Assembly (NCBI GenBank): GCA_022821845.1
Contig: JAJECT010000002.1
Location: 1 to 59,175 of the forward strand
DNA length: 59,175 nucleotides
Direction: 5' to 3'
From: Rhodothermales bacterium
GTDB lineage: Bacteria; Bacteroidota; Rhodothermia; Rhodothermales; VXPQ01
Shown in pieces: positions 13,511 through 26,580 of this stretch (position 1 is the first letter of the stretch; each line of letters starts with the position of its first letter). The translations under genes and the position numbers were made by a program. The notes below the pieces were generated by a model. It was not told the origin of the DNA and searched no databases. It was given only the letters and a program-made list of their open reading frames with translations.

Positions 13511-14461
13511 CTACAGCGTTCCCAAGCAGTAATCGCCGCCGTCCCGCTGTATGTAATCGAAGAACGGGGTGTCGGCGACTGCCCTGAAAGAGGGATATAA
13601 CACGGTCTCCTCATTGTACCCCCCGGCTACGAGACCATACCCATTATCCACGTTTGAAAGCGTACCCGGATGAACCAGTACGCGCTCGTCCGACGGATCA
13701 CCCCCCGGCGGGTCCCAATCCGCACTGCCAACAGTAATGTCAAGCCATATCCCGAATAAAGCAAGACCGTCCGTATCCGGGTTCCAAAACTCAATTCCCG
13801 TATCGTCGTGATAATATGATCGCATCGTTTCGTACGGCAGGCTCAAGTTAATATCTAATTCCCAGCCATTTTCAATTTCAATTTCCTTATTATTATATGA
13901 AAATGTATAATTTTTTAAAGGCGTACTACACGGCGTATTTGATTTAAATTTATCATAAAAACGTACACTATATATAACATCTATCCGAACCAATAAAAAA
14001 TCAGACATGCCTTTAGCAGTAACCATAATATCCCGAGTATTCGAATCATAATAATTGATTCGAACTTCTCCAGGAATTTCTATATTTACGACGCTCTTGG
14101 CACCATCGGATCGCACCACTTCCATGCGATGACGACTCCCGTATCCGGGCGTAAAATCAGCCCAATAGATATGATCCAATTGGCCCGTAGCGTTGGCCAC
14201 GACAGAATCCTGCCATACATACACCTTGCCGCTACCCAGGTCGGTTGACGTTACGACCGCATCAAGCGCCTCTCTCGTTTCCGGGAAAAGCAGGTCTTCC
14301 ACAGGGCCCACAAGCACCGTCTGCATAGGCAGCCGAGGATTAAAAACGCCGTACATCGAAAACGGCTCGTCCACGCCGGTCGGCCCCGCCACGTCTTCCT
14401 CGCATCCGACAAGGCTCAGGATCAACAACAAGGGAACAGCACAAAAATAATATCTGCGCAT
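13511..14461 (-). CDS. Lipoprotein of a three-copy tandem family, copy 2 (AT-rich mosaic core)
   Basis: A 316-residue paralogue of the genes at 12189 and 14731 with lipobox LVGC (Cys20). The ends are nearly identical to the other copies, but the core (residues about 122-205, DNA 13845-14095) is strikingly AT-rich and uses Lys, Asn, Ile and Tyr codons rare elsewhere in the window. It nevertheless keeps the reading frame, the Cys in CSTP and the overall pattern (YYDSNTRDIMV matching the DSDAGTRDLHV of copy 1). This suggests replacement of the core by recombination with a diverged donor. Function is unknown. Confidence 0.7.
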   Translation of the reverse strand: MRRYYFCAVPLLLILSLVGCEEDVAGPTGVDEPFSMYGVFNPRLPMQTVLVGPVEDLLFPETREALDAVVTSTDLGSGKVYVWQDSVVANATGQLDHIYWADFTPGYGSRHRMEVVRSDGAKSVVNIEIPGEVRINYYDSNTRDIMVTAKGMSDFLLVRIDVIYSVRFYDKFKSNTPCSTPLKNYTFSYNNKEIEIENGWELDINLSLPYETMRSYYHDDTGIEFWNPDTDGLALFGIWLDITVGSADWDPPGGDPSDERVLVHPGTLSNVDNGYGLVAGGYNEETVLYPSFRAVADTPFFDYIQRDGGDYCLGTL

Positions 14462-14730: not shown

Positions 14731-15687
14731 CTACAGCATTCCCAGGCAGTAATCGCCCCCGTCCCGCTGGATGAAATCGAAGAACGGGGTGTAGCCAACC
14801 ACCCTGCTTGAGGGGTATAGCGCGGCTTCGTCATTGTACCCTCCAACGACCAAGCCGTACCCATTCTCCACGTTCGAAAGCGTACCCGGATGAACCAGTA
14901 CGCGCTCGTCCGACGGATCGCCCCCCGGCGGATTCCATTCGGGGCTGCCAACCGTGAACGCCAAGCGAAGGCGCAACAAGGCCAGGCCGTCCCGAGTCGG
15001 ATTCCAAAAATCAATTCCAGTGTCGTCATGATAATATGATCGCATGGTTTCATAAAAAATATTCATGTCAACGATCAATTCCCATCCGCCATCTATTTTA
15101 TTTTCTGTCCCCTTATGCGAAAAAACATACTGCCGACGCGGGGTCGTACATACTGTAGTAGGGTCATCGATATTGTAAAAAGAAACATCGTATATAGTTT
15201 CTATGCGCGGCAAAACAAAATTCTCATCCTCGATACCCAAAATGCGTACATGCAGGTCTTGCCTTCCCGCCTCGCTACCCTCAACACGCACTTCCCCGGG
15301 TATTTCCACGTTTACAGTGCTTGTCTTTCCATCGGAGCGCACCACTTCCATACGATGATGGCTCCCGTATCCGGGCGTAAAATCAGCCCAATAGATATGA
15401 TCCAGTTGTCCCGTAGCGTTCGCTGCGACCGAATCTCGCCATACATAGGCCTGCCCGCTACCCAAATCGGTTGAGGTTACGAACGCATCAAGCGGCTTCC
15501 CGGAGTTCGGGGCAAGCAAGTCTTCTACGGGAGCCACAAGCACTGTCTGCATAAACAGCCGGGGGTTAAAGACGCCGTACAGCGAGAAAGCCTCGTCCAC
15601 TCCGCCGGGCCCGGCGACCTCCTCCTCGCAACCGGCAAGGCTCAGGAAAAACAACAAGGCAGCGGCACAAAAATAATATCTGCGCAT
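14731..15687 (-). CDS. Lipoprotein of a three-copy tandem family, copy 3
   Basis: A 318-residue paralogue with lipobox LAGC (Cys20) and the same conserved ends (N-terminus to about residue 125; C-terminus ending DYCLGML). Its core is closer to copy 1 than to copy 2 (RVEGSEAGRQDLHVRILG; VCTTPRRQYVFSHKG) but is still clearly diverged. Unlike copies 1 and 2, its upstream sequence differs after about 12 bases, so it may be transcribed from the promoter of the small secreted protein gene 47 bases upstream. Function is unknown. Confidence 0.7.
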   Translation of the reverse strand: MRRYYFCAAALLFFLSLAGCEEEVAGPGGVDEAFSLYGVFNPRLFMQTVLVAPVEDLLAPNSGKPLDAFVTSTDLGSGQAYVWRDSVAANATGQLDHIYWADFTPGYGSHHRMEVVRSDGKTSTVNVEIPGEVRVEGSEAGRQDLHVRILGIEDENFVLPRIETIYDVSFYNIDDPTTVCTTPRRQYVFSHKGTENKIDGGWELIVDMNIFYETMRSYYHDDTGIDFWNPTRDGLALLRLRLAFTVGSPEWNPPGGDPSDERVLVHPGTLSNVENGYGLVVGGYNDEAALYPSSRVVGYTPFFDFIQRDGGDYCLGML

Positions 15688-17640: not shown

Positions 17641-18876
17641 ATGGCCATAGTCCTTGCTTTCAGCGGCGGCCTCGATACGTCTTTTTGCGTACCGTATCTC
17701 GCCGAAACCTTTGACGAACCGGTCTATACGGTTACGGTCAACACCGGCGGCCTTTCCGAAAAAGACGCGCAAGCCGTCGAAGCGCGCGCCCGGACGCTGG
17801 GCGCCGCCCGGCACATCCTCGTCGACGCCCGGAAAACCCTTTTCGACGATCACCTGAGCTACCTGATTAAGGGAAATGTGCTGCGCGGCGGCGTATATCC
17901 GCTGTGTGTAGGGCCGGAACGGGTAACCCAGGCCCGCATGGTGGTGCAAGCGGCGCGGGAAACGGGGGCGCGGGCCATCGCCCACGGATCCACCGGCGCC
18001 GGAAACGATCAGGTCCGCTTTGACGTCGCCACGCGCCTCTTGGCGGAGGATCTGGATATTTTGACCCCCATCCGCTCCCTCGGGCTGGATCGCGAGCAAA
18101 CGACCGCCTTTTTGCAGGAACGCGGCTTCGAGGTGCCCCGCAAAACCACGGTGTGGTCTATCAACCGGGGCCTGTGGGGCGCCACGATCGGAGGCGGCGA
18201 AACGCTGACCCCCGCCGACCCGCTACCCGAAGAAGGGTGGGCAGACACAGTAACGCCTTCGCAGGCGCCCGAGGCCGGGCAGGAATGGGTGATCGGTTTC
18301 GAGGCGGGCCTGCCCGTTTCGCTGAACGGATCGCCCATGGATCCGGTCGCGCTCGTCGAAACGCTCAATGCCGAAGGAGCGGCGCACGGCGTGGGAAGAG
18401 GCATGCACACAGGCGATACGATCCTCGGCGTCAAGGGGCGCGTGGCCTTCGAAGCGCCTGCGCCCGCCATCCTGATTCCGGCCCACCGGGAACTGGAGAA
18501 AATCGTGCTGACGAGCCGCCAGCGCTTCCAGAAAGACCATCTGGCGGATTATTATGGGCAGATGCTGCACGAAGGACACTATTTCGATCCGGTCATGCGA
18601 GACATAGAGGCCCTCGTCGATTCGTCGCAAAAGCGCGTTACCGGCGCGGTGCGGGCGAAGGCGCGTCAGGGATGCGTCGAAATACGGGGATGCGAAAGCC
18701 CCTGGTCCATGTTCGACCCGGAGGTGGCGGTCTATGGCGAAACGAACGCCTTGTGGGACGGACGGGACGCCGAAGGATTTACGCAGATTTACGGCGTACA
18801 GGCGCTTCTGGCGCGCAGGGCGCGGCGGCAAGCGGAAAACGCGGCTGAAAAATCTTCCGAGGAAGGACATGAATAG
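17641..18876 (+). CDS. argG: Argininosuccinate synthase
   Basis: Joins citrulline and aspartate with ATP to give argininosuccinate. The 411-residue sequence opens with the PP-loop nucleotide site LAFSGGLDTS (5-14) and has AHGSTGAGNDQVRFD, the citrulline/aspartate-binding segment, and the C-terminal TGAVRAKARQG...RGCESPWSMFD region. It is first in a seven-gene plus-strand arginine operon. Its 3' end overlaps argC by 8 bases, indicating translational coupling. Confidence 0.96.
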   Translation: MAIVLAFSGGLDTSFCVPYLAETFDEPVYTVTVNTGGLSEKDAQAVEARARTLGAARHILVDARKTLFDDHLSYLIKGNVLRGGVYPLCVGPERVTQARMVVQAARETGARAIAHGSTGAGNDQVRFDVATRLLAEDLDILTPIRSLGLDREQTTAFLQERGFEVPRKTTVWSINRGLWGATIGGGETLTPADPLPEEGWADTVTPSQAPEAGQEWVIGFEAGLPVSLNGSPMDPVALVETLNAEGAAHGVGRGMHTGDTILGVKGRVAFEAPAPAILIPAHRELEKIVLTSRQRFQKDHLADYYGQMLHEGHYFDPVMRDIEALVDSSQKRVTGAVRAKARQGCVEIRGCESPWSMFDPEVAVYGETNALWDGRDAEGFTQIYGVQALLARRARRQAENAAEKSSEEGHE

Positions 18877-19897
18877 CCAGCATCACCGGACCGCGCTGCT
18901 TCACGGCGCAGGATATACGGGCGGCGAACTGATCCGCCTGCTTCTTGCCCATCCCGTCGCCCGACTGCATGCGGTCACCAGCCGGTCGTACGCCGGAGAG
19001 CCGCTGTGGCGCGCGCACCCGCATCTGCGCGGGCAGACGGACCTCGCGTTCAGCGATCCGGACGCGTTCGACGCCGCCGGGGCGGACAGCATCTTCGTCG
19101 CGGCGGAACATGGCCAAAGCGCCCGCCTCGCCGCCGCCTTGCTCGCGGACGGGTTCGACGGCATACTCATCGACCTGAGCGCGGATTTCCGGCTCGACCG
19201 GGCGGGCCTCTACGAAACATGGTACGATTTCGAGCATCCGGCGCCCGGATTGCTCTCGTCCTTCGCCTATGGCCTCCCGGAGCTTTGCGCCCCGTACCCG
19301 CCCGGAACGAAGCGTATTGCGAATCCGGGGTGCTTCGCCACGGGCGTCACGCTGGCGCTATGGCCGGCGGCGCGGCATATGGACCAGATGGACGCGTTCG
19401 TAACGGCCTGGACCGGCGCTTCGGGTTCGGGCGCGCGGCCCAGGGCCACGACCCACTTTCCGACCCGGGACGGGAACGCGCGGGCCTACAAGGCGCTGCG
19501 CCATCAGCATCTTCCGGAAATACAACACATGCTGGGCCCTGGCGCCACCGTTCGCTTCGTGCCCGTTTCCGGCCCCTGGAGCCGAGGCATCTGGGGGGTG
19601 GCGGATATCCCGCTCCCGGCGGGCGTCGCCGCTGCCGACGTAGACGCATGGTATGCGGAAGCCTATGCGGATTGCCCCCTTGTCCGGCGCTATCCGGGCG
19701 CGCTCCCGGAACTTCGGTTCGCCGCGCATTCGCCGTTCTGCGACATTGGATGGATGGTGCGCGACGGACGCCTGCTGGTCGGATTCGCAGAAGACAATCT
19801 GATCAAGGGCGCCTCGGGACAAGCCATCCAGAACCTCAACATCTTGCTTGGCTTGCCGGAGGCGACGGGCCTTTTGCCTCATCCGCAAACATCCTGA
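18869..19897 (+). CDS. argC: N-acyl-gamma-glutamyl-phosphate reductase
   Basis: NADPH-dependent reduction of N-acylglutamyl phosphate to the semialdehyde. The 342 residues show the nucleotide-binding GAGYTGGEL (13-21), DLSADFRL (102-109) and the catalytic cysteine in NPGCFATG (C155). The ATG at 18869 lies inside the end of argG behind an SD-like GAGGAAGG. Because the carbamoyltransferase in this operon looks N-succinylornithine-specific, the acyl group may be succinyl rather than acetyl. Confidence 0.95.
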   Translation: MNSQHHRTALLHGAGYTGGELIRLLLAHPVARLHAVTSRSYAGEPLWRAHPHLRGQTDLAFSDPDAFDAAGADSIFVAAEHGQSARLAAALLADGFDGILIDLSADFRLDRAGLYETWYDFEHPAPGLLSSFAYGLPELCAPYPPGTKRIANPGCFATGVTLALWPAARHMDQMDAFVTAWTGASGSGARPRATTHFPTRDGNARAYKALRHQHLPEIQHMLGPGATVRFVPVSGPWSRGIWGVADIPLPAGVAAADVDAWYAEAYADCPLVRRYPGALPELRFAAHSPFCDIGWMVRDGRLLVGFAEDNLIKGASGQAIQNLNILLGLPEATGLLPHPQTS

Positions 19898-19909
19898 CCC
19901 ACTCGGAAT

Positions 19910-21079
19910 ATGACGACCCAGGACGTTATCACGCTCGAACAGCGCTATCAGATTCCCACGTACGCTCATATGCCCCTTGCGCTTGCGCGGGGAGAAGGGA
20001 GCTACGTATGGGATCTCGACGGGCGCAAATATCTGGACCTGTACGGCGGGCATTGCGTGGCGCTCCTCGGCCATAGTCCGCCCCGGGTGACGGAAGCCAT
20101 CCGGAAGCAAGCCGGACGGCTCCTTTTTTATTCGAACACCGTCTACAACGATACGCGGGCGCGGGCGCTCGAACGCCTCGGACAGCTGGCCCCCGAAGGA
20201 CTCCGGCATATATTCTTTTGCAATTCGGGCGCCGAAGCCAACGAAACGGCCATGAAACTGGCGCGCAAGCATACCGGACGGCCCCGCATCCTCGCGATGG
20301 AAGGCGGCTTCCACGGGCGTACGCTTGGCTGCCTGGCCGCTACCTGGCAAGAAAAATACCGGGCGCCGTATCGGGAAGCGCTGGCCCCGACGACCTTCGT
20401 TCCGTTTGGGGACGCCGCCGCGGCAGAGGCCGCCTTCGCCGAGCATGGCGATATCGCGGGCGTGATCCTCGAACCGATCCAGAGCATGGCCGGCATGGTC
20501 GAGGCGGAGCCGTCGTATTACCGGGCGTTGCGGGCGCTCTGCAACCGGCACGGCGCCCTGCTCGTCTTCGACGAGGTGCAAACGGGCGTGGGACGCACGG
20601 GGACCTTTTCCATTAGCGAGCACTACGGGATGCGCCCGGATTGCATTTCGCTGGCGAAAAGCCTTGGGGCAGGCGTACCCGCAGGCGCCGTGCTCTTGTC
20701 CGACGAACTGGCCGCCACGGTGAAGCCCGGAGACCAGGGCACTACGTTTGGCGGCGGTATGATCGCCATGGCCGCCGTAGAAGCCACGCTGCAAACCCTT
20801 GTGGAAGACAACCTCATGCCGCGCGCAGTCCGCCTGTTCGAGCATGTACGGGACGGCCTGGCGTCGCTGGACTGCACGGTGCGCGGGCGAGGCGGCCTCC
20901 TTGGCGTCGTCCTGGATCGGCCCTCCGCACCCGTTCGCTCGGCGCTGCTGGCGCAGGGCGTCATTACGGGCGGGGCGGACGACCCGAACGTGATCCGGCT
21001 GATGCCTCCGATCAACACCCCTTTCGACGCGCTGGACAGGTTTTGCGAAGCGCTTTCCTCGGCCTTGAAAGAACAGTAA
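19910..21079 (+). CDS. argD: N-acyl-ornithine aminotransferase (class III PLP)
   Basis: Transfers an amino group from glutamate to the N-acylglutamate semialdehyde. The 389-residue class III aminotransferase has FFCNSGAEANETAMKLAR (102-119), GGFHGRTLG (132-140), the Asp-containing LVFDEVQTGVGRTG (218-231) and the PLP lysine in ISLAKSLGAG (K250). It starts 12 bases after argC. Relatives include ornithine and succinylornithine aminotransferases; the operon context makes the biosynthetic role clear. Confidence 0.94.
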   Translation: MTTQDVITLEQRYQIPTYAHMPLALARGEGSYVWDLDGRKYLDLYGGHCVALLGHSPPRVTEAIRKQAGRLLFYSNTVYNDTRARALERLGQLAPEGLRHIFFCNSGAEANETAMKLARKHTGRPRILAMEGGFHGRTLGCLAATWQEKYRAPYREALAPTTFVPFGDAAAAEAAFAEHGDIAGVILEPIQSMAGMVEAEPSYYRALRALCNRHGALLVFDEVQTGVGRTGTFSISEHYGMRPDCISLAKSLGAGVPAGAVLLSDELAATVKPGDQGTTFGGGMIAMAAVEATLQTLVEDNLMPRAVRLFEHVRDGLASLDCTVRGRGGLLGVVLDRPSAPVRSALLAQGVITGGADDPNVIRLMPPINTPFDALDRFCEALSSALKEQ

Positions 21080-21090
21080 GCACACTCGTT

Positions 21091-22083
21091 ATGAGACATC
21101 TGATCGACTGGCAATCGCTCAGCCGCGCCGTATGGAACGCGGCGGTGGAGCGGGCCTTGCATTATTACGAAAACGCCGGGGTATGGACCGACGCAGCGCG
21201 GGGCCGCAGCATCGGGCTCATGTTTTTCAACCCTTCCCTGCGTACGCGAACGTCCATGGAGCTGGCGGCGGCGCAATTGGGCGCGCATTCGACCGTGCTC
21301 AGTCCGGGACAAGACACCTGGCGTTTCGCCTTCAAGGAGGGCGGCGTCATGGATGGCGCCGAGGCCGAACATATCCGGGAAGCCATCGGGGTGCTGTCGA
21401 GGTATTACGACGCGCTGGGGGTACGGCTTTTCGCTTCGCTCAAGAGTTACAACAAGGACCGGGACGAACGGCTTATCCGCACCATTGCGGCGGCCTCGTC
21501 CGTGCCGGTCGTGAACCTCGAATCCGCTTTCTACCATCCCTGCCAGGCCCTGGCCGACGCCGCGGTCATTCGGCGGCGCCTGGGCGATCCGCGCGGAAAG
21601 AAGTTCGTGCTGGCGTGGACGTATCATCCCAAAGCCCTCCCCATGGCCGTGCCCAATTCCGCCGTACTGATGGCGGCCCGCTCCGGCATGCAGGTAACCG
21701 TCGTGCGGCCGGACGAGTACGCGCTGGATTACGGAATCATGGAAAAGGCGCGAACCTATGGCGCGCAGGTGGAGGAAACGGATAACCGCGAGCAAGCCTT
21801 CGACGGGGCGGACGTCGTGTACGCCAAGGCATGGAGCGGACAGATGGTCTATTCCGATCCCGAACACGAAGCGGCGCGGCGGGAAAACTTGCGGGACTGG
21901 TGCGTCACGACGGAATGGATGCAAAAAACGCGGGAAGCGCGCTTCATGCATTGCTTGCCCGTACGGCGCAACGTGGTCGTGGAGGACGACGTGCTGGACG
22001 GGCCGGGAGCCATTCACCTCGAACAGGCCGAATTTCGCTTGCACGCGCAAAAAGCGATCCTCGAATACGCCTGGGGACTATAA
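21091..22083 (+). CDS. argF': N-acylornithine carbamoyltransferase (ArgF', probably N-succinylornithine type)
   Basis: Carbamoylates the delta-amino group of an N-acylated ornithine, giving N-acylcitrulline. The 330-residue protein has the carbamoyl-phosphate motif in FFNPSLRTRTS (45-55), HPCQ (149-152) and FMHCLPVRRN near the C-terminus. The FFNPS(L/M)RTRTS form and the MDGxxxEH segment mark the acetyl/succinylornithine subfamily rather than ordinary OTCase. The specificity position (Glu92 in the Xanthomonas acetyl enzyme, Pro90 in the Bacteroides succinyl enzyme) is Ala92 here, which argues for succinylornithine. It lies between argD and argB with short spacers. Confidence 0.9.
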   Translation: MRHLIDWQSLSRAVWNAAVERALHYYENAGVWTDAARGRSIGLMFFNPSLRTRTSMELAAAQLGAHSTVLSPGQDTWRFAFKEGGVMDGAEAEHIREAIGVLSRYYDALGVRLFASLKSYNKDRDERLIRTIAAASSVPVVNLESAFYHPCQALADAAVIRRRLGDPRGKKFVLAWTYHPKALPMAVPNSAVLMAARSGMQVTVVRPDEYALDYGIMEKARTYGAQVEETDNREQAFDGADVVYAKAWSGQMVYSDPEHEAARRENLRDWCVTTEWMQKTREARFMHCLPVRRNVVVEDDVLDGPGAIHLEQAEFRLHAQKAILEYAWGL

Positions 22084-22108
22084 GGAGTACAGGATACCCT
22101 TGGACGAA

Positions 22109-22894
22109 ATGCCAGCAAGAACGACCGTGATCAAAACGGGCGGCGCATCCGTCGAGCGGACGGCGTCTCTCGACGCGCTATGGACCGCCGTGGCCGAACG
22201 GACGGGCAGTGAGCGCGTCGTGGTCGTGCATGGCGGCGGCGCGCGGGCCACCGAAGTCGCCGAACGGCTCGGTCATGCCCCGCGCATGGTGCATGGCCGC
22301 CGGGTCACCACGGACATGGACCTGCGCATCGTGCAATGGACCCTGCGCGGCGAACTGAACGGACGCCTTGCGGCCCATGCGGCGCGGCGCGGCGTACAGG
22401 CCGTGGGACTGTCCGGAGCCGACGGGCCTACGGTATACGTTACGAAACGGCCTCCCTGGAACGTGGACGGGGAAACGATCGACTTCGGATGGGTCGGCGA
22501 TATCGCATCGGTCGATACGGGCCTGCTGGACCTCCTGCTGGATCGGGGGTACGTGCCGGTCGTCGCCCCGATCGGCGTGGACCGCGCAGGACAATTGTAC
22601 AACGTAAACGCGGACACCTTTTCGTGCGCGCTGGCGCGCGCCTTGCGGGCGGACGAATACCTGCTGGTCACAGAGGTCGGAGGCATTCGCCGCAAGGCGG
22701 ACGACCCGGATTCCCTGTTGCCCTCCCTCGACGCCGAACAACATGCCCGGGGCGTACGAGAAGGGTGGGTCACGGATGGCATGCGCGTAAAAATCGACGT
22801 GGGATTCGCCGCCCGGCAAGCCGGAATTCCGCGCGTCTTCGTCGTGTCCCCCGACGGCGTCCGGGCGCCCTCGACAGGTACGCAAATAACGTAA
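22109..22894 (+). CDS. argB: N-acylglutamate kinase
   Basis: Phosphorylates N-acylglutamate, the second step of the pathway. The 261-residue amino-acid-kinase-fold protein has a Lys-Thr-Gly-Gly nucleotide loop at its N-terminus (VIKTGGAS), VVVVHGGGARATE (37-49) and VNADTFSCALARAL. The overall length fits ArgB and LysZ enzymes. The Met at 22109 is used; a TTG nine bases earlier is an alternative start. An AGGAG lies about 20 bases upstream of the TTG. As with the other genes here, the acyl group (acetyl or succinyl) is set by the first enzyme of the pathway, which is not in the window. Confidence 0.93.
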   Translation: MPARTTVIKTGGASVERTASLDALWTAVAERTGSERVVVVHGGGARATEVAERLGHAPRMVHGRRVTTDMDLRIVQWTLRGELNGRLAAHAARRGVQAVGLSGADGPTVYVTKRPPWNVDGETIDFGWVGDIASVDTGLLDLLLDRGYVPVVAPIGVDRAGQLYNVNADTFSCALARALRADEYLLVTEVGGIRRKADDPDSLLPSLDAEQHARGVREGWVTDGMRVKIDVGFAARQAGIPRVFVVSPDGVRAPSTGTQIT

Positions 22895-22905
22895 CCCCTG
22901 ACGGT

Positions 22906-23970
22906 ATGCCGCAGGAAGAAGTCATAGCGCTTTTGAAATCCCTCGTGCGCATCCCCTCCCTGAGCGGCGAGGAGCAAAACATCGCCGGATTCGTGGAGCG
23001 GTATGTGGCGCAGCGCGGAATCGAGGCGGGACGCCTGGACAACAATGTGTTCTTTGGCCTGGGCGACGGCGAAGACGTCTTGTTGCTGAATACGCATCTG
23101 GACACCGTGCCTCCGTCGGAGCGTCATCCGCGCGGCGCATTCGACGCCTTTGAGGCGGACGGTTGCGTGTACGGACGCGGAAGCGTGGACGCGAAAGCCT
23201 CCGTCGCCGCCATGACCGCCGCATTGCTTTCGCTGGTCGCCGAGGGCTTCCGGCCTCCCGGGCGCGTTATCGTAGCCCTGACCGCCTGCGAGGAAACGGG
23301 GGGCGAATACAACGGACTCCAGGCGTTGCGCCCGCATTTGCCCCCGGTAACGGCGGCGCTTGTGGGCGAACCCACGGACCTTGCGCCATGCATCGCCCAA
23401 AAAGGCCTGCTCGTTCTGCGCGTGGAAGCGCAGGGCGAAACGGCCCATGCCGCGCGGGCGCATCTTGGAAAAAACGCCATCGAAATCGCGGCGAGGGACA
23501 TTCGGCGCGCCGCAGAGATGACCTTCGAGCGGGAAGACCCTTTCCTCGGACGCCCTACGGTAACCGTAACCACCGTAACGGGAGGGTCCGCCCGCAACGT
23601 GGTGCCCGAGCATTGCGCGTTCACGCTCGACATCCGCTCGACGCCCGCCTGGACGCACCGGGAACTGATCGACCGGGTTCGCGATACGCTGGAGTCGGAG
23701 GTTCATGTGCATAGCGAACGGATCGCGCCCGTCGCGACGGACCCGAACGAACGCATCGCGCAGGCATGTTTCCGCGCCCTGCCGGACGCCGAACCGTTCG
23801 GCTCCCCCACCGCGTCGGACTGGATCTTTCTGGCCGACGTCCCCACGGTCAAGATAGGGCCGGGATCAAGCGCGTTATCCCATACTCCCGAAGAGCGTAT
23901 CCCCGTCGCCGAAGCAAGGCGAGCCGTGGATGCGTACCGTTCCATTATCAAAGCGTACTTCGAATCATGA
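22906..23970 (+). CDS. argE: M20-family N-acyl-citrulline/ornithine deacylase (ArgE/DapE-like)
   Basis: A zinc aminoacylase expected to remove the acyl group from N-acylcitrulline, which the ArgF' route requires before argG can act. The 354 residues show the M20 metal ligands and catalytic acids: H64 and D66 in NTHLDTVPP, GRGSVDAKA with D95, E129-E130 in ACEETGGEY, and a dimerisation domain with the conserved HAARAHLGKNAI. C-terminal SALSHTPEERIP supplies the last His. The DapE-like active site leaves open acetyl or succinyl cleavage; context supports the arginine role. Its stop overlaps the argH start (ATGA). Confidence 0.85.
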   Translation: MPQEEVIALLKSLVRIPSLSGEEQNIAGFVERYVAQRGIEAGRLDNNVFFGLGDGEDVLLLNTHLDTVPPSERHPRGAFDAFEADGCVYGRGSVDAKASVAAMTAALLSLVAEGFRPPGRVIVALTACEETGGEYNGLQALRPHLPPVTAALVGEPTDLAPCIAQKGLLVLRVEAQGETAHAARAHLGKNAIEIAARDIRRAAEMTFEREDPFLGRPTVTVTTVTGGSARNVVPEHCAFTLDIRSTPAWTHRELIDRVRDTLESEVHVHSERIAPVATDPNERIAQACFRALPDAEPFGSPTASDWIFLADVPTVKIGPGSSALSHTPEERIPVAEARRAVDAYRSIIKAYFES

Positions 23971-25301
23971 CCCGCCCCTCGCCCCCGCCGCTCTGGAAAA
24001 AATCGGACGCCTCCGAAACGATGGAGGACAAGGCGATGCGCTTCGCCGTAGGCGAGGACTATCGGTGGGATACGCTCCTGTTGCCCTACGACATACGGGC
24101 TACGCGGGCGCATGCCTGGGGCCTTGCGGAAATCGGCATTCTGAGCCGGGCGGAATTCGAGGCGGTCGACCAGGCGCTGGATGCGCTGGCGGAGCAGGAA
24201 CTGTCCGTCCGCCCCGAAGACGAGGATTCCCACACGGTGATCGAGCATCGCCTGACGGAAGCGCTGGGCGACACGGGCAAAAAAATCCATGCGGGGCGCT
24301 CGCGGAACGATCAGGTGCTGGCTGCGCTGCGGTTGTACCTGCGGGACGCGCTGACGGACGTCATGCGGCAAACCGCGGACATGGCGCGCATCCTGTGCCG
24401 CCGGGGCAAGGAGTGGGAACGGTATCTGATGCCCGGCTACACGCACATGCAACGGGCCATGCCGTCTACGGCGGGATTGTGGGCCATGGGCTACGCCGAA
24501 CTGTTCGCCGTCGATATCGAGCGGCTGGGAGAGACTGTCGGACGGATCAACGTATCGCCCCTTGGATCGGCGGCGGGGTACGGCGTGCCCGGACTGGCGC
24601 TGCCGCGCAAGGAGGTGGCCCGGCGGCTCGGCTTCGACGGCGTACAGGAACATGTTACCGCCGTACAGTTGTCGCGCGGGAAGCTGGAACTGGACGTAGC
24701 GCATGCGCTTGCGCAAATCGCCGGAACCTGCAACCGCCTCGCTTCGGACCTTGTGCTGTATCAAACGGCGGAATTCGGTTTTCTGGAACCCGCCGACGCG
24801 TACGGCACGGGCAGTTCCATCATGCCGCAAAAACGGAACCCGGACATACCGGAACTGGCGCGGGCCTCGTACCACCGCGTCCTGGCCGAAATGCACCTGC
24901 TGGCCTCCCTGCCCGCCAATCTGCCCTCTGGATATCACAGAGACCTGCAGCTCACCAAGGAAGCCGTCCTGCGCGCCGTGCATACGACGTCGAGCGTGGC
25001 GGACGCCATGACGGCGACGCTCCGGAACATCCGCTTCGACCCGGCGCGCCTCGACGAAGCCGTATCGCCCGATCTGTTCGCTACCGCCAGGGCCCTTGAA
25101 CTGACGCAAAAAGGCGCGCCGTTTCGGGAAGCCTATCGGCAAACCGCCGCCGAACTGGAAACGCTCCGGAAACCGTCCGCCGAGGAAGCCCTGTCGGCGT
25201 ACCGGGTAGACGGATACCCGGGGCAATGCCGCCCGGAGCGCATCCTCAAACGCCTGAAATCGGCTTTGGACGCGGTCGATAAGGAGGAAGAATCGGCGTA
25301 G
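23967..25301 (+). CDS. argH: Argininosuccinate lyase
   Basis: Splits argininosuccinate into arginine and fumarate, the final step. The 444-residue fumarase-superfamily enzyme has AGRSRNDQV (109-117), MPGYTHMQRAMPST (155-168) and the signature GSSIMPQKRNPD (282-293) containing the mobile catalytic-serine loop. It starts inside the end of the deacylase gene. It is last in the operon; the next gene is convergent and of lower GC content. With argG, argC, argD, argF' and argB this leaves only the initial glutamate acyltransferase missing from the cluster. Confidence 0.96.
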   Translation: MTRPSPPPLWKKSDASETMEDKAMRFAVGEDYRWDTLLLPYDIRATRAHAWGLAEIGILSRAEFEAVDQALDALAEQELSVRPEDEDSHTVIEHRLTEALGDTGKKIHAGRSRNDQVLAALRLYLRDALTDVMRQTADMARILCRRGKEWERYLMPGYTHMQRAMPSTAGLWAMGYAELFAVDIERLGETVGRINVSPLGSAAGYGVPGLALPRKEVARRLGFDGVQEHVTAVQLSRGKLELDVAHALAQIAGTCNRLASDLVLYQTAEFGFLEPADAYGTGSSIMPQKRNPDIPELARASYHRVLAEMHLLASLPANLPSGYHRDLQLTKEAVLRAVHTTSSVADAMTATLRNIRFDPARLDEAVSPDLFATARALELTQKGAPFREAYRQTAAELETLRKPSAEEALSAYRVDGYPGQCRPERILKRLKSALDAVDKEEESA

Positions 25302-25339: not shown

Positions 25340-25873
25340 TTAATGTCTAACATTTAGACGTATCCACTGGGCAAGTTCCTCCACGGGTAGCATATCGGAA
25401 AGCTTTTTTGTCAACTTAAACGTTATGGATTGCCCCTCTGCCATCCGTACAAGATGCCCGGCGGCGCCTTCGGAAATATCTCCCTTTCGCCAACCGTTAA
25501 ACACGATGGCGTTGGGACATACGCCAAGGCAAAGAAGATACTTATACGCCTTATCATGCCGTATATGATTAAACTGGAAAGTGCCGTTAGCCCCCAAAGA
25601 TGCGGTTTTTACTTCTATGGGCACTCCCAATATGGTCATATCGGTTGGATCCGTTCGATTTTCACTCTTCGCTACGCTTATGCCGTTCTCCTCGGCATAA
25701 CGCCTTACAAATTCTTCGCCAATTGCGCCTCGATTCGTCATGCCAACATGCCTATAGGATTCCAAAGCAGAATTTTTCCATATTGATTCAGGAGTGTGAT
25801 CCCGAATCACATCACGCATGATTTGCAGGATTTCTATGCTGGAGGTTTCCATACGCCGTGGCCATCCTGGCAT
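25340..25873 (-). CDS. Probable restriction endonuclease (PD-(D/E)xK-type) of a small R-M system
   Basis: A 177-residue protein with a compact nuclease-like centre: RGAIGEEFVRRYAEENGI (a typical alpha-helix before the core), then Asp78 in DPTDMT and Glu87-Val-Lys89 in GVPIEVKTAS, matching the D-x(n)-E-x-K catalytic pattern. The N-terminus is uncertain: Met at 25873 or, less overlapping, Met at 25852. It begins within the last 40 bases of the methyltransferase gene, in another frame, so the two are co-transcribed and coupled. No named restriction family was recognised; the call rests on the motif plus the partner gene. Confidence 0.6.
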   Translation of the reverse strand: MPGWPRRMETSSIEILQIMRDVIRDHTPESIWKNSALESYRHVGMTNRGAIGEEFVRRYAEENGISVAKSENRTDPTDMTILGVPIEVKTASLGANGTFQFNHIRHDKAYKYLLCLGVCPNAIVFNGWRKGDISEGAAGHLVRMAEGQSITFKLTKKLSDMLPVEELAQWIRLNVRH

Positions 25874-26580
25874 TTCCAGAAAACAAGGAAATATGAATGA
25901 TTCTTTCGTGCATGAACCTGTCTAACGGCCCTGCTCACACCTGGACGATTGTTTCTCACGACGACAAAAAGGTCTTCTGCAACGAAGCCTATTTCAGCAT
26001 ATTTTTGCATGATTTCGACATGGGTAAACCGCTGCCTGTTAGAGCAAACCTCATCCTGGCACTTGACGATCATAACGCCTCGATCACGTAGTACCCGGTA
26101 TGCCTCCTCGCCTGCCTCGAAATACAAATCCAGAACAGCTTCGTGGTATTTTTTGTTCGTACGATTTCCACTGTCGTTGTTCCGGTAGTATCGCTCAAAG
26201 GCGCGATGCGTTTTAGCCGAATGCGCCGTTCCGCCAGGTGAATGCATATAAGGCGGATCGAGAACAACCGCGTCTATTTCCCCATTAGAATAGGGTAAAT
26301 CCCGGCAATCGGTGCCCGTTAGAATATCGGTTGCGCGAAGGGCGTATAAACCATCCGGAACCCTCCGCCAAAAAACGCCTTTTCCATAGGTTACGTCAGC
26401 AACGATGCTGCCAGGTTTTAGATAGAGGCTGAGGATTTGCGGAAAGGCATATTCGTTCCCCGACTGGAAAACGCTAAAAACAAGGTTGTTCGTTGCTTTT
26501 CCGTTTTGAACCACCCGCCTGTTCGACTCCGGCAACGACGGGCTTGGCAATCCCTGAATAACAGGCTGTGTGTAGACCAT
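25834..26580 (-). CDS. DNA methyltransferase (amino-methyltransferase with DPPY motif)
   Basis: A 248-residue SAM-dependent methyltransferase. Motif I-like VADVTYGKGVF is at 60-70, an acidic SAM-ribose position is in RATDILTGTD, and the catalytic DPPY is at 108-111 followed by MHSPGGT. This marks N6-adenine or N4-cytosine methylation rather than C5. It precedes a nuclease-like gene, so it would protect host DNA. The recognition site cannot be inferred. The island has lower GC and lies between two housekeeping operons, suggesting horizontal gain. Confidence 0.8.
   Translation of the reverse strand: MVYTQPVIQGLPSPSLPESNRRVVQNGKATNNLVFSVFQSGNEYAFPQILSLYLKPGSIVADVTYGKGVFWRRVPDGLYALRATDILTGTDCRDLPYSNGEIDAVVLDPPYMHSPGGTAHSAKTHRAFERYYRNNDSGNRTNKKYHEAVLDLYFEAGEEAYRVLRDRGVMIVKCQDEVCSNRQRFTHVEIMQKYAEIGFVAEDLFVVVRNNRPGVSRAVRQVHARKNHSYFLVFWKCQDGHGVWKPPA

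Follow-up and report, generated by a model that had tools for sequence, protein, structure and literature searches.

A predicted succinyl-type arginine operon in a Rhodothermales lineage and a candidate acylglutamate synthase encoded in related operons

Background

The described system closest to the locus considered here is the Bacteroides arginine pathway, represented by the SOTCases BT3717 and that of B. fragilis, the first enzyme ArgA2 (BT3761) and the desuccinylase BT3549. The GNAT protein encoded in the Bacteroidetes operons was named ArgA2 and predicted to be an N-succinylglutamate synthase, and the same report describes BT3761 of B. thetaiotaomicron as critical on minimal medium, with rescue by arginine (PMC9026213). 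The GapMind report likewise regards BT3761 as probably an N-succinylglutamate synthase (PMC7311316). The pathway as such is already known, and the operon described below would, judging by its sequence, be a further example of it with succinyl as the predicted acyl group.

The rule concerning Glu92 of the carbamoyltransferase reportedly goes back to Shi et al. 2007. According to PMC4581275, AOTCases are distinguished by Glu92, Asn185 and Lys302 from SOTCases, which have A/S/P/V/Q, P and V/I/E at the respective positions, and the succinyl group is anchored in the B. fragilis SOTCase by H176, R178 and R278. GapMind takes S, P, A or V at the site equivalent to Glu92 to denote succinyl preference, and 61 of 69 Bacteroidetes with the pathway carry one of these residues there (PMC7311316).

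The arginine operon of the window

The stretch of DNA analysed here (the window) is 59,175 nt long and forms part of a contig (C10) of a 2.8 Mb genome, which is in 45 contigs and is estimated to be about 96% complete. On the plus strand, from 17641 to 25301, the ORF list and family profile scores give the gene order argG-argC-argD-argF'-argB-M20-argH. The operon opens with genes for an argininosuccinate synthase (argG, 17641..18876; TIGR00032, 316.8 bits, cut-off 268.2) and an N-acyl-gamma-glutamyl-phosphate reductase (argC, 18869..19897; TIGR01850, 305 bits, cut-off 233.6). Going by the ORF coordinates, the likely ATG of argC at 18869 lies inside the 3' end of argG, the two genes overlapping with none between them, whereas many relatives have at this point a conserved gene that we term X0. 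Next come argD (19910..21079), assigned as an N-acylornithine aminotransferase from its best matches only, with 352.8 bits to TIGR00707 lying below the cut-off of 410.05; argF' (21091..22083), for an N-acylornithine carbamoyltransferase predicted to be of the succinylornithine type (NF003384, 426.5 bits, cut-off 288); and argB, for an N-acylglutamate kinase (22109..22894, starting at 22109 or at a TTG at 22100; TIGR00761, 178.6 bits, cut-off 151.3). The last two genes code for an M20 deacylase, predicted to act on N-acylcitrulline (22906..23970; PF01546, 103.1 bits), and an argininosuccinate lyase (argH, 23967..25301; TIGR00838, 304 bits, cut-off 279.5). Three M20 genes were found in the genome; the two outside the operon code for TIGR01891 amidohydrolases scoring above the cut-off, and the operon enzyme passes no NCBIfam cut-off among the matches listed (25 models).

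Elsewhere in the window, two adjacent and similar genes for putative lipoproteins on the minus strand (13511-14461 and 14731-15687) likely represent a tandem duplication. An overlapping pair on the same strand adjoins argH (25340-25873 and 25834-26580) and is possibly a restriction-modification pair, the product of the latter gene having a DPPY motif of the kind seen in DNA methyltransferases.

Specificity residues of ArgF'

The plus-strand translation of argF' is 330 aa long, and its MDGAEAEH segment (residues 87-94; 21349..21372) contains the acyl-specificity position. The initial annotation had placed an alanine there, and our comparisons bear this out: in phmmer searches against PDB sequences Ala92 (codon 21364-21366) stands opposite Glu92 of the X. 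campestris AOTCase (3kzc, VMDGDTEEHI), and the aligned site of the B. fragilis SOTCase is Pro90 (1js1, IMDGDKPEHL), the 2g7m chain having Glu. The equivalent of Xanthomonas Asn185 is Pro184 (codon 21640..21642), a residue of the proline-rich loop that is Pro in SOTCases and invariant in an alignment of 21 ArgF' sequences, and from alignment the equivalent of Lys302 (V/I/E in SOTCases) is Val296 (codon 21976..21978). The combination A/P/V matches the published SOTCase rule at all three positions. Furthermore, the transcarbamylase motifs SxRT, HPxQ and HxLP, here SLRT, HPCQ and HCLP, are invariant or nearly so in the 21 rows, and signs of the knotted group can be read from the sequence in the proline-rich loop HPKALPMAVPNS and in Trp77 of the 80's loop, the latter also invariant across the 21 aligned rows.

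Among PDB sequences the X. campestris AOTCase is the best match of ArgF' (the top-scoring chain, 3l02, is an AOTCase chain with Ala at position 92, VMDGDTAEHI) and shares with it the proline-rich loop and Trp77 signatures; the two differ in that ArgF' has Ala92 for Glu92, Pro184 for Asn185 and Val296 for Lys302. The NCBIfam model matched by ArgF' is named N-acetylornithine carbamoyltransferase. These features bear on the main alternative to a succinylated pathway, namely that ArgA2 makes N-acetylglutamate and that ArgF' is relaxed, or acetyl-specific through other residues. Such a reading draws on the greater overall closeness of ArgF' to the AOTCase (3kzc, 270 bits) than to the SOTCase (1js1, 174 bits) and on the succinyl anchors, of which H176 and R278 correspond to His179 and Arg292, while R178 is replaced by Lys181, as in Xanthomonas. 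It is opposed by the succinyl-type identity of all three discriminating residues and by the succinyl preference that GapMind assigns to Ala at the site (PMC7311316).

We then surveyed 195 genomes of the class, counting ArgF' at E 1e-30 or better and OTC at E 1e-60 or better, and found ArgF' in 135, a GNAT of the ArgA2 type described below in 72, ArgJ in 44 and OTC in 27. The 136 ArgF' sequences (one genome, G178, supplies two, one of them a fragment) have at site 92 A in 98 cases, T in 13, Q in 11, V in 10, P in 2, S in 1, G in 1 and Glu in none; the Gly and one of the Thr sequences are fragments, and both Thr (13 rows) and Gly (the one fragment) fall outside the published residue set. All six genomes of the window's genus have Ala92, with the full A/P/V set and ArgA2 present in each. 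Since the alanine is constant in the genus and no ArgF' of the class has Glu, Ala92 is no chance or sequencing oddity.

The first enzyme

The initial annotation had held that the acyltransferase was missing from the cluster. This stands, none having been recognised among the ORFs beside the seven arg genes, but the enzyme is very likely encoded at an unlinked place in the genome. A genome-wide search for an atypical acyltransferase with the single model PF00583 gave three GNAT matches (on C24, C36 and C3). The C24 protein, P0002, is of the ArgA2 type; the C36 and C3 proteins gave low scores with other GNAT models (48-51 bits, well under the cut-off). P0002 is 195 aa long and is encoded on the minus strand (L005:1276-1860) between prfA and rpsF, as named from their sequences; the same genes flank it in five of the six genomes of the genus, the contig ending there in the sixth. 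Four named loci (Flavobacteria, Flammeovirgaceae, Flavobacterium zepuense and Balneolaceae) have an arg operon that starts with a gene whose product is 63-68% identical to P0002. In a Balneolaceae family (f17), 38 genomes have a relative of P0002 and a cluster that was read, and in every one the relative leads the arg operon. Based on this shared operon position of its relatives, and on a presumed likeness to the BT3761 sequence, P0002 very likely belongs to the ArgA2 family.

A profile search across the genome, of the kind suggested by the initial annotation, found no ArgJ; the same model was positive in 10 of 14 controls. Neither was there an ordinary OTC in the genome at E 1e-60. A second OTCace_N gene (on C19), considered as an OTC, is an aspartate carbamoyltransferase (374 bits against a cut-off of 263).

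Among genomes of the class with ArgF', ArgJ also occurs in three with ArgA2 and nine with X0, and in all six loci examined (seven were fetched, L322 and L327 being the same place) it adjoins an argC of its own plus argB and/or argD. It looks as if this second cluster were a separate acetyl route to ornithine, with two acyl pools kept apart, which argues against acetylated intermediates in the ArgF' operons. In their favour, the Caldithrix relative of ArgA2, Cabys_1732, has been called an N-acetylglutamate synthase on the basis of unpublished results (PMC5317091). The argJ-centred clusters (L323, L324, L325, L326, L327 and L328, from genomes G108, G113, G117, G149, G066 and G068) occur in genomes whose ArgF' has Thr or Gln at site 92. 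For the Thr-site operons ArgJ is an unlikely first enzyme, given that the six loci have their own argC plus argB and/or argD.

The predicted pathway and its alternatives

We consider it quite probable that the window harbours a Bacteroides-type arginine operon working on N-succinylated intermediates, with an unlinked ArgA2 as the first enzyme. This is predicted because ArgF' has three SOTCase-type residues, the genome has no match to ArgJ or OTC, and an ArgA2-type GNAT is present; the gene order and the lack of an X0 match in the genome-wide search were likewise observed directly. The succinylated pathway proposed by the initial annotation thereby gains support, and its view of the pathway type is probably right. 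We infer the acyl group, its donor and the activity of each enzyme as follows. ArgA2 (P0002) would convert glutamate to N-succinylglutamate, from which ArgB, ArgC and ArgD would produce N-succinylornithine; ArgF', with a side pocket opened by Ala92, would carbamoylate the latter; the M20 enzyme would take succinate off succinylcitrulline; and ArgG and ArgH would perform the final steps to arginine. The likeness to the Bacteroides pathway would extend to the succinyl-type site residues, the ArgA2-family first enzyme and the DapE-related deacylase, the difference being that ArgA2 in the window's genus is unlinked, between prfA and rpsF.

On balance of the evidence given above, we regard the acetylated pathway as improbable. 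To our knowledge, there is no precedent for an arginine pathway with an acyl group other than acetyl or succinyl. The spread of Ala, Thr, Gln, Val, Pro and Ser at the site within one class, with Thr outside the published set, could mean that an open pocket only marks "not acetyl" and that a further group such as glutaryl or malonyl is used, which we deem very improbable, the nearest characterised pathway being succinyl (PMC7311316).

A conserved gene in place of ArgA2

In genomes of the class that lack ArgA2, the ArgF' operons have X0 as a conserved gene between argG and argC. The 135 genomes with ArgF' comprise 64 with X0 only, 68 with ArgA2 only, one with both (G010) and two with neither, in one of which (G161) the arg cluster is cut by a contig end; the other (G148) has on C221 a fragmentary P-loop match that is perhaps X0, scoring 25.2 bits to DUF1611 when counted with its neighbours. 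Of the 65 genomes that have X0 as well as argF', 62 have the two genes no more than 5 kb apart and three have them on different contigs. Among class genomes without an ArgF' match X0 occurs in three and ArgA2 in three, and neither occurs in any of the 27 OTC genomes. The opposition of X0 and ArgA2 gives p = 5e-35 in Fisher's exact test, which ignores kinship. On an ArgF' tree (fasttree, with some long branches) X0 changes eight times and ArgA2 seven; of six independent pairs on well supported branches, ArgA2 changes opposite to X0 in about five and in the same direction in none, the sign test being non-significant (median p 0.06) with pairs too few to reach 0.05.

X0 also occurs outside the class. 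The best 80 of at least 587 confirmed named ArgF' loci include 62 with X0, four with ArgA2, none with both and 14 with neither, the last including three Rhodothermales loci (L203, L207 and L244) and several short contigs. By the labelled genes, X0 is directly 5' of argC in 60 of the 62 loci and in 50 of these directly 3' of argG; it has no preceding labelled gene in nine and neighbours argF' in L239 and L255. X0 operons occur in Rhodothermales, Acidobacteria, Gammaproteobacteria, Planctomycetota and others. Fifty of the 62 loci were followed to their genomes and searched for ArgA and ArgJ, ArgA2 being sought at the loci, where none was found in those read. ArgA scored above the model cut-off in none of the 50 (one of 14 controls), and ArgJ was present in three. 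The amino-acid-kinase part of the ArgA model has matches in all 50, and its acetyltransferase part matches weakly (19-39 bits) in 16, the two such matches near argB (L252, L261) being GNATs downstream of argH. In X0 genomes of other phyla (e.g. L299-L302), which have no full ArgA, the kinases score mostly 127-172 bits against the kinase part, compared with about 50-75 bits in the four Rhodothermia genomes of the set (G195-G198).

X0 (e.g. L082:3615-4793, L086:10653-11714 and, on the plus strand, L209:731-1789; all outside the window) is a two-domain P-loop protein of about 350 aa with an all-beta N-terminal domain. An alignment of 23 X0 sequences (A2) has a P-loop with the invariant core GxxMxxGKT and the conserved motifs TGxxxxRD and ELGDGxxGxYGV. 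Its predicted structure (mean pLDDT 94) shows a C-terminal domain of the dethiobiotin synthetase/CTP synthase/DUF1611 fold, with Z 16.6 to 2g0t, 16.0 to 2obn and 15.3 to 7xrj (DgcN); the top rows are tied at Z 15.9-16.8, 2g0t and 2obn being level with dethiobiotin synthetase and CTP synthase. The modelled fold would favour neither an acyl-CoA nor an ATP mechanism. For the N-terminal domain there was no convincing fold match (best Foldseek E 0.41, best Z 3.1), which does not imply a new fold.

DgcN acetylates D-glutamate. X0 appears to resemble DUF1611/DgcN (7xrj, titled N-acetyltransferase) in the C-terminal P-loop fold, to which a weak profile match is also confined (hhalign probability 58, E 1e-4), and differs from it in the N-terminal beta domain outside the profile alignment, in the arg-operon location and in its Pfam scores. 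Assignment as plain DUF1611 failed for the five operon proteins scanned, which gave 17.0, 18.8, 16.3, 20.4 and 12.6 bits against a gathering score of 25 (the fifth, L298, has argG before it and argC after it); none of the five passed a Pfam cut-off and none of four an NCBIfam cut-off, and several further X0 proteins scored 19-21 bits to DUF1611, below the cut-off. An X0 paralogue (L290:3610-4650 in G182, L292:2821-3894 in G186 and L294:3065-4090 in G124) matches X0 along almost the entire sequence (hhalign probability 100). In G182 and G124 it is encoded apart from the argF' operon, and G186 has no ArgF' match; one of the three proteins scores 0.1 bit above the DUF1611 cut-off. Our literature search, in which subscription journals were little covered, found no description of X0. 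The accounts consulted place DgcN in D-glutamate use, stating no reaction, and according to PMC12363236 many Rhodothermia and Woeseiales have dgcN (DUF1611). X0 is also found in both groups, and some of the published dgcN calls there might be X0.

X0 replaces ArgA2, accompanies succinyl-type ArgF' and is the only conserved candidate that we found in genomes lacking ArgA and, for the most part, ArgJ. On these grounds we propose, with somewhat better than even confidence, that it is a so far unrecognised acylglutamate synthase, most likely an N-succinylglutamate synthase, unrelated to ArgA, ArgJ and ArgA2; the replacement, co-occurrence and location are observed, and the reaction is what we posit from them. 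X0 may instead be a helper or regulator, with a further synthase elsewhere, or a short stand-alone GNAT may be the first enzyme in some of the 16 X0 genomes with weak ArgA-acetyltransferase matches.

Several lineages, the window's genus among them, have ArgA2 in place of X0. The window's ArgF' is 57-66% identical to the best-matching sequences from other genera, some from genomes with X0 and some from genomes lacking it, 39-45% to those of f17 and 36-38% to three Balneolaceae homologues in a further alignment (A1). It stands nearer to lineages in which X0 is present in many operons than to the Balneolaceae homologues. G010, at 66% one of the closest genomes beyond the genus, retains both X0 and ArgA2. 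Given these identities, the argG/argC overlap and G010, the window operon may, on sequence grounds, derive from an X0-type operon by loss of X0.

Conclusions

The present analysis corrects the acetyl-specific database name (NCBIfam) of the window's ArgF', which we predict to be of the succinylornithine type, and assigns a probable succinyl pathway, its first enzyme encoded at an unlinked site, to a Rhodothermales lineage. Should X0 prove to be the first enzyme, this would close a gap in the arginine biosynthesis of several phyla together and extend the succinyl pathway far beyond Bacteroidota. As X0 and ArgA2 would be two unrelated genes interchangeable beside one arg set, the claim is directly testable by complementation.
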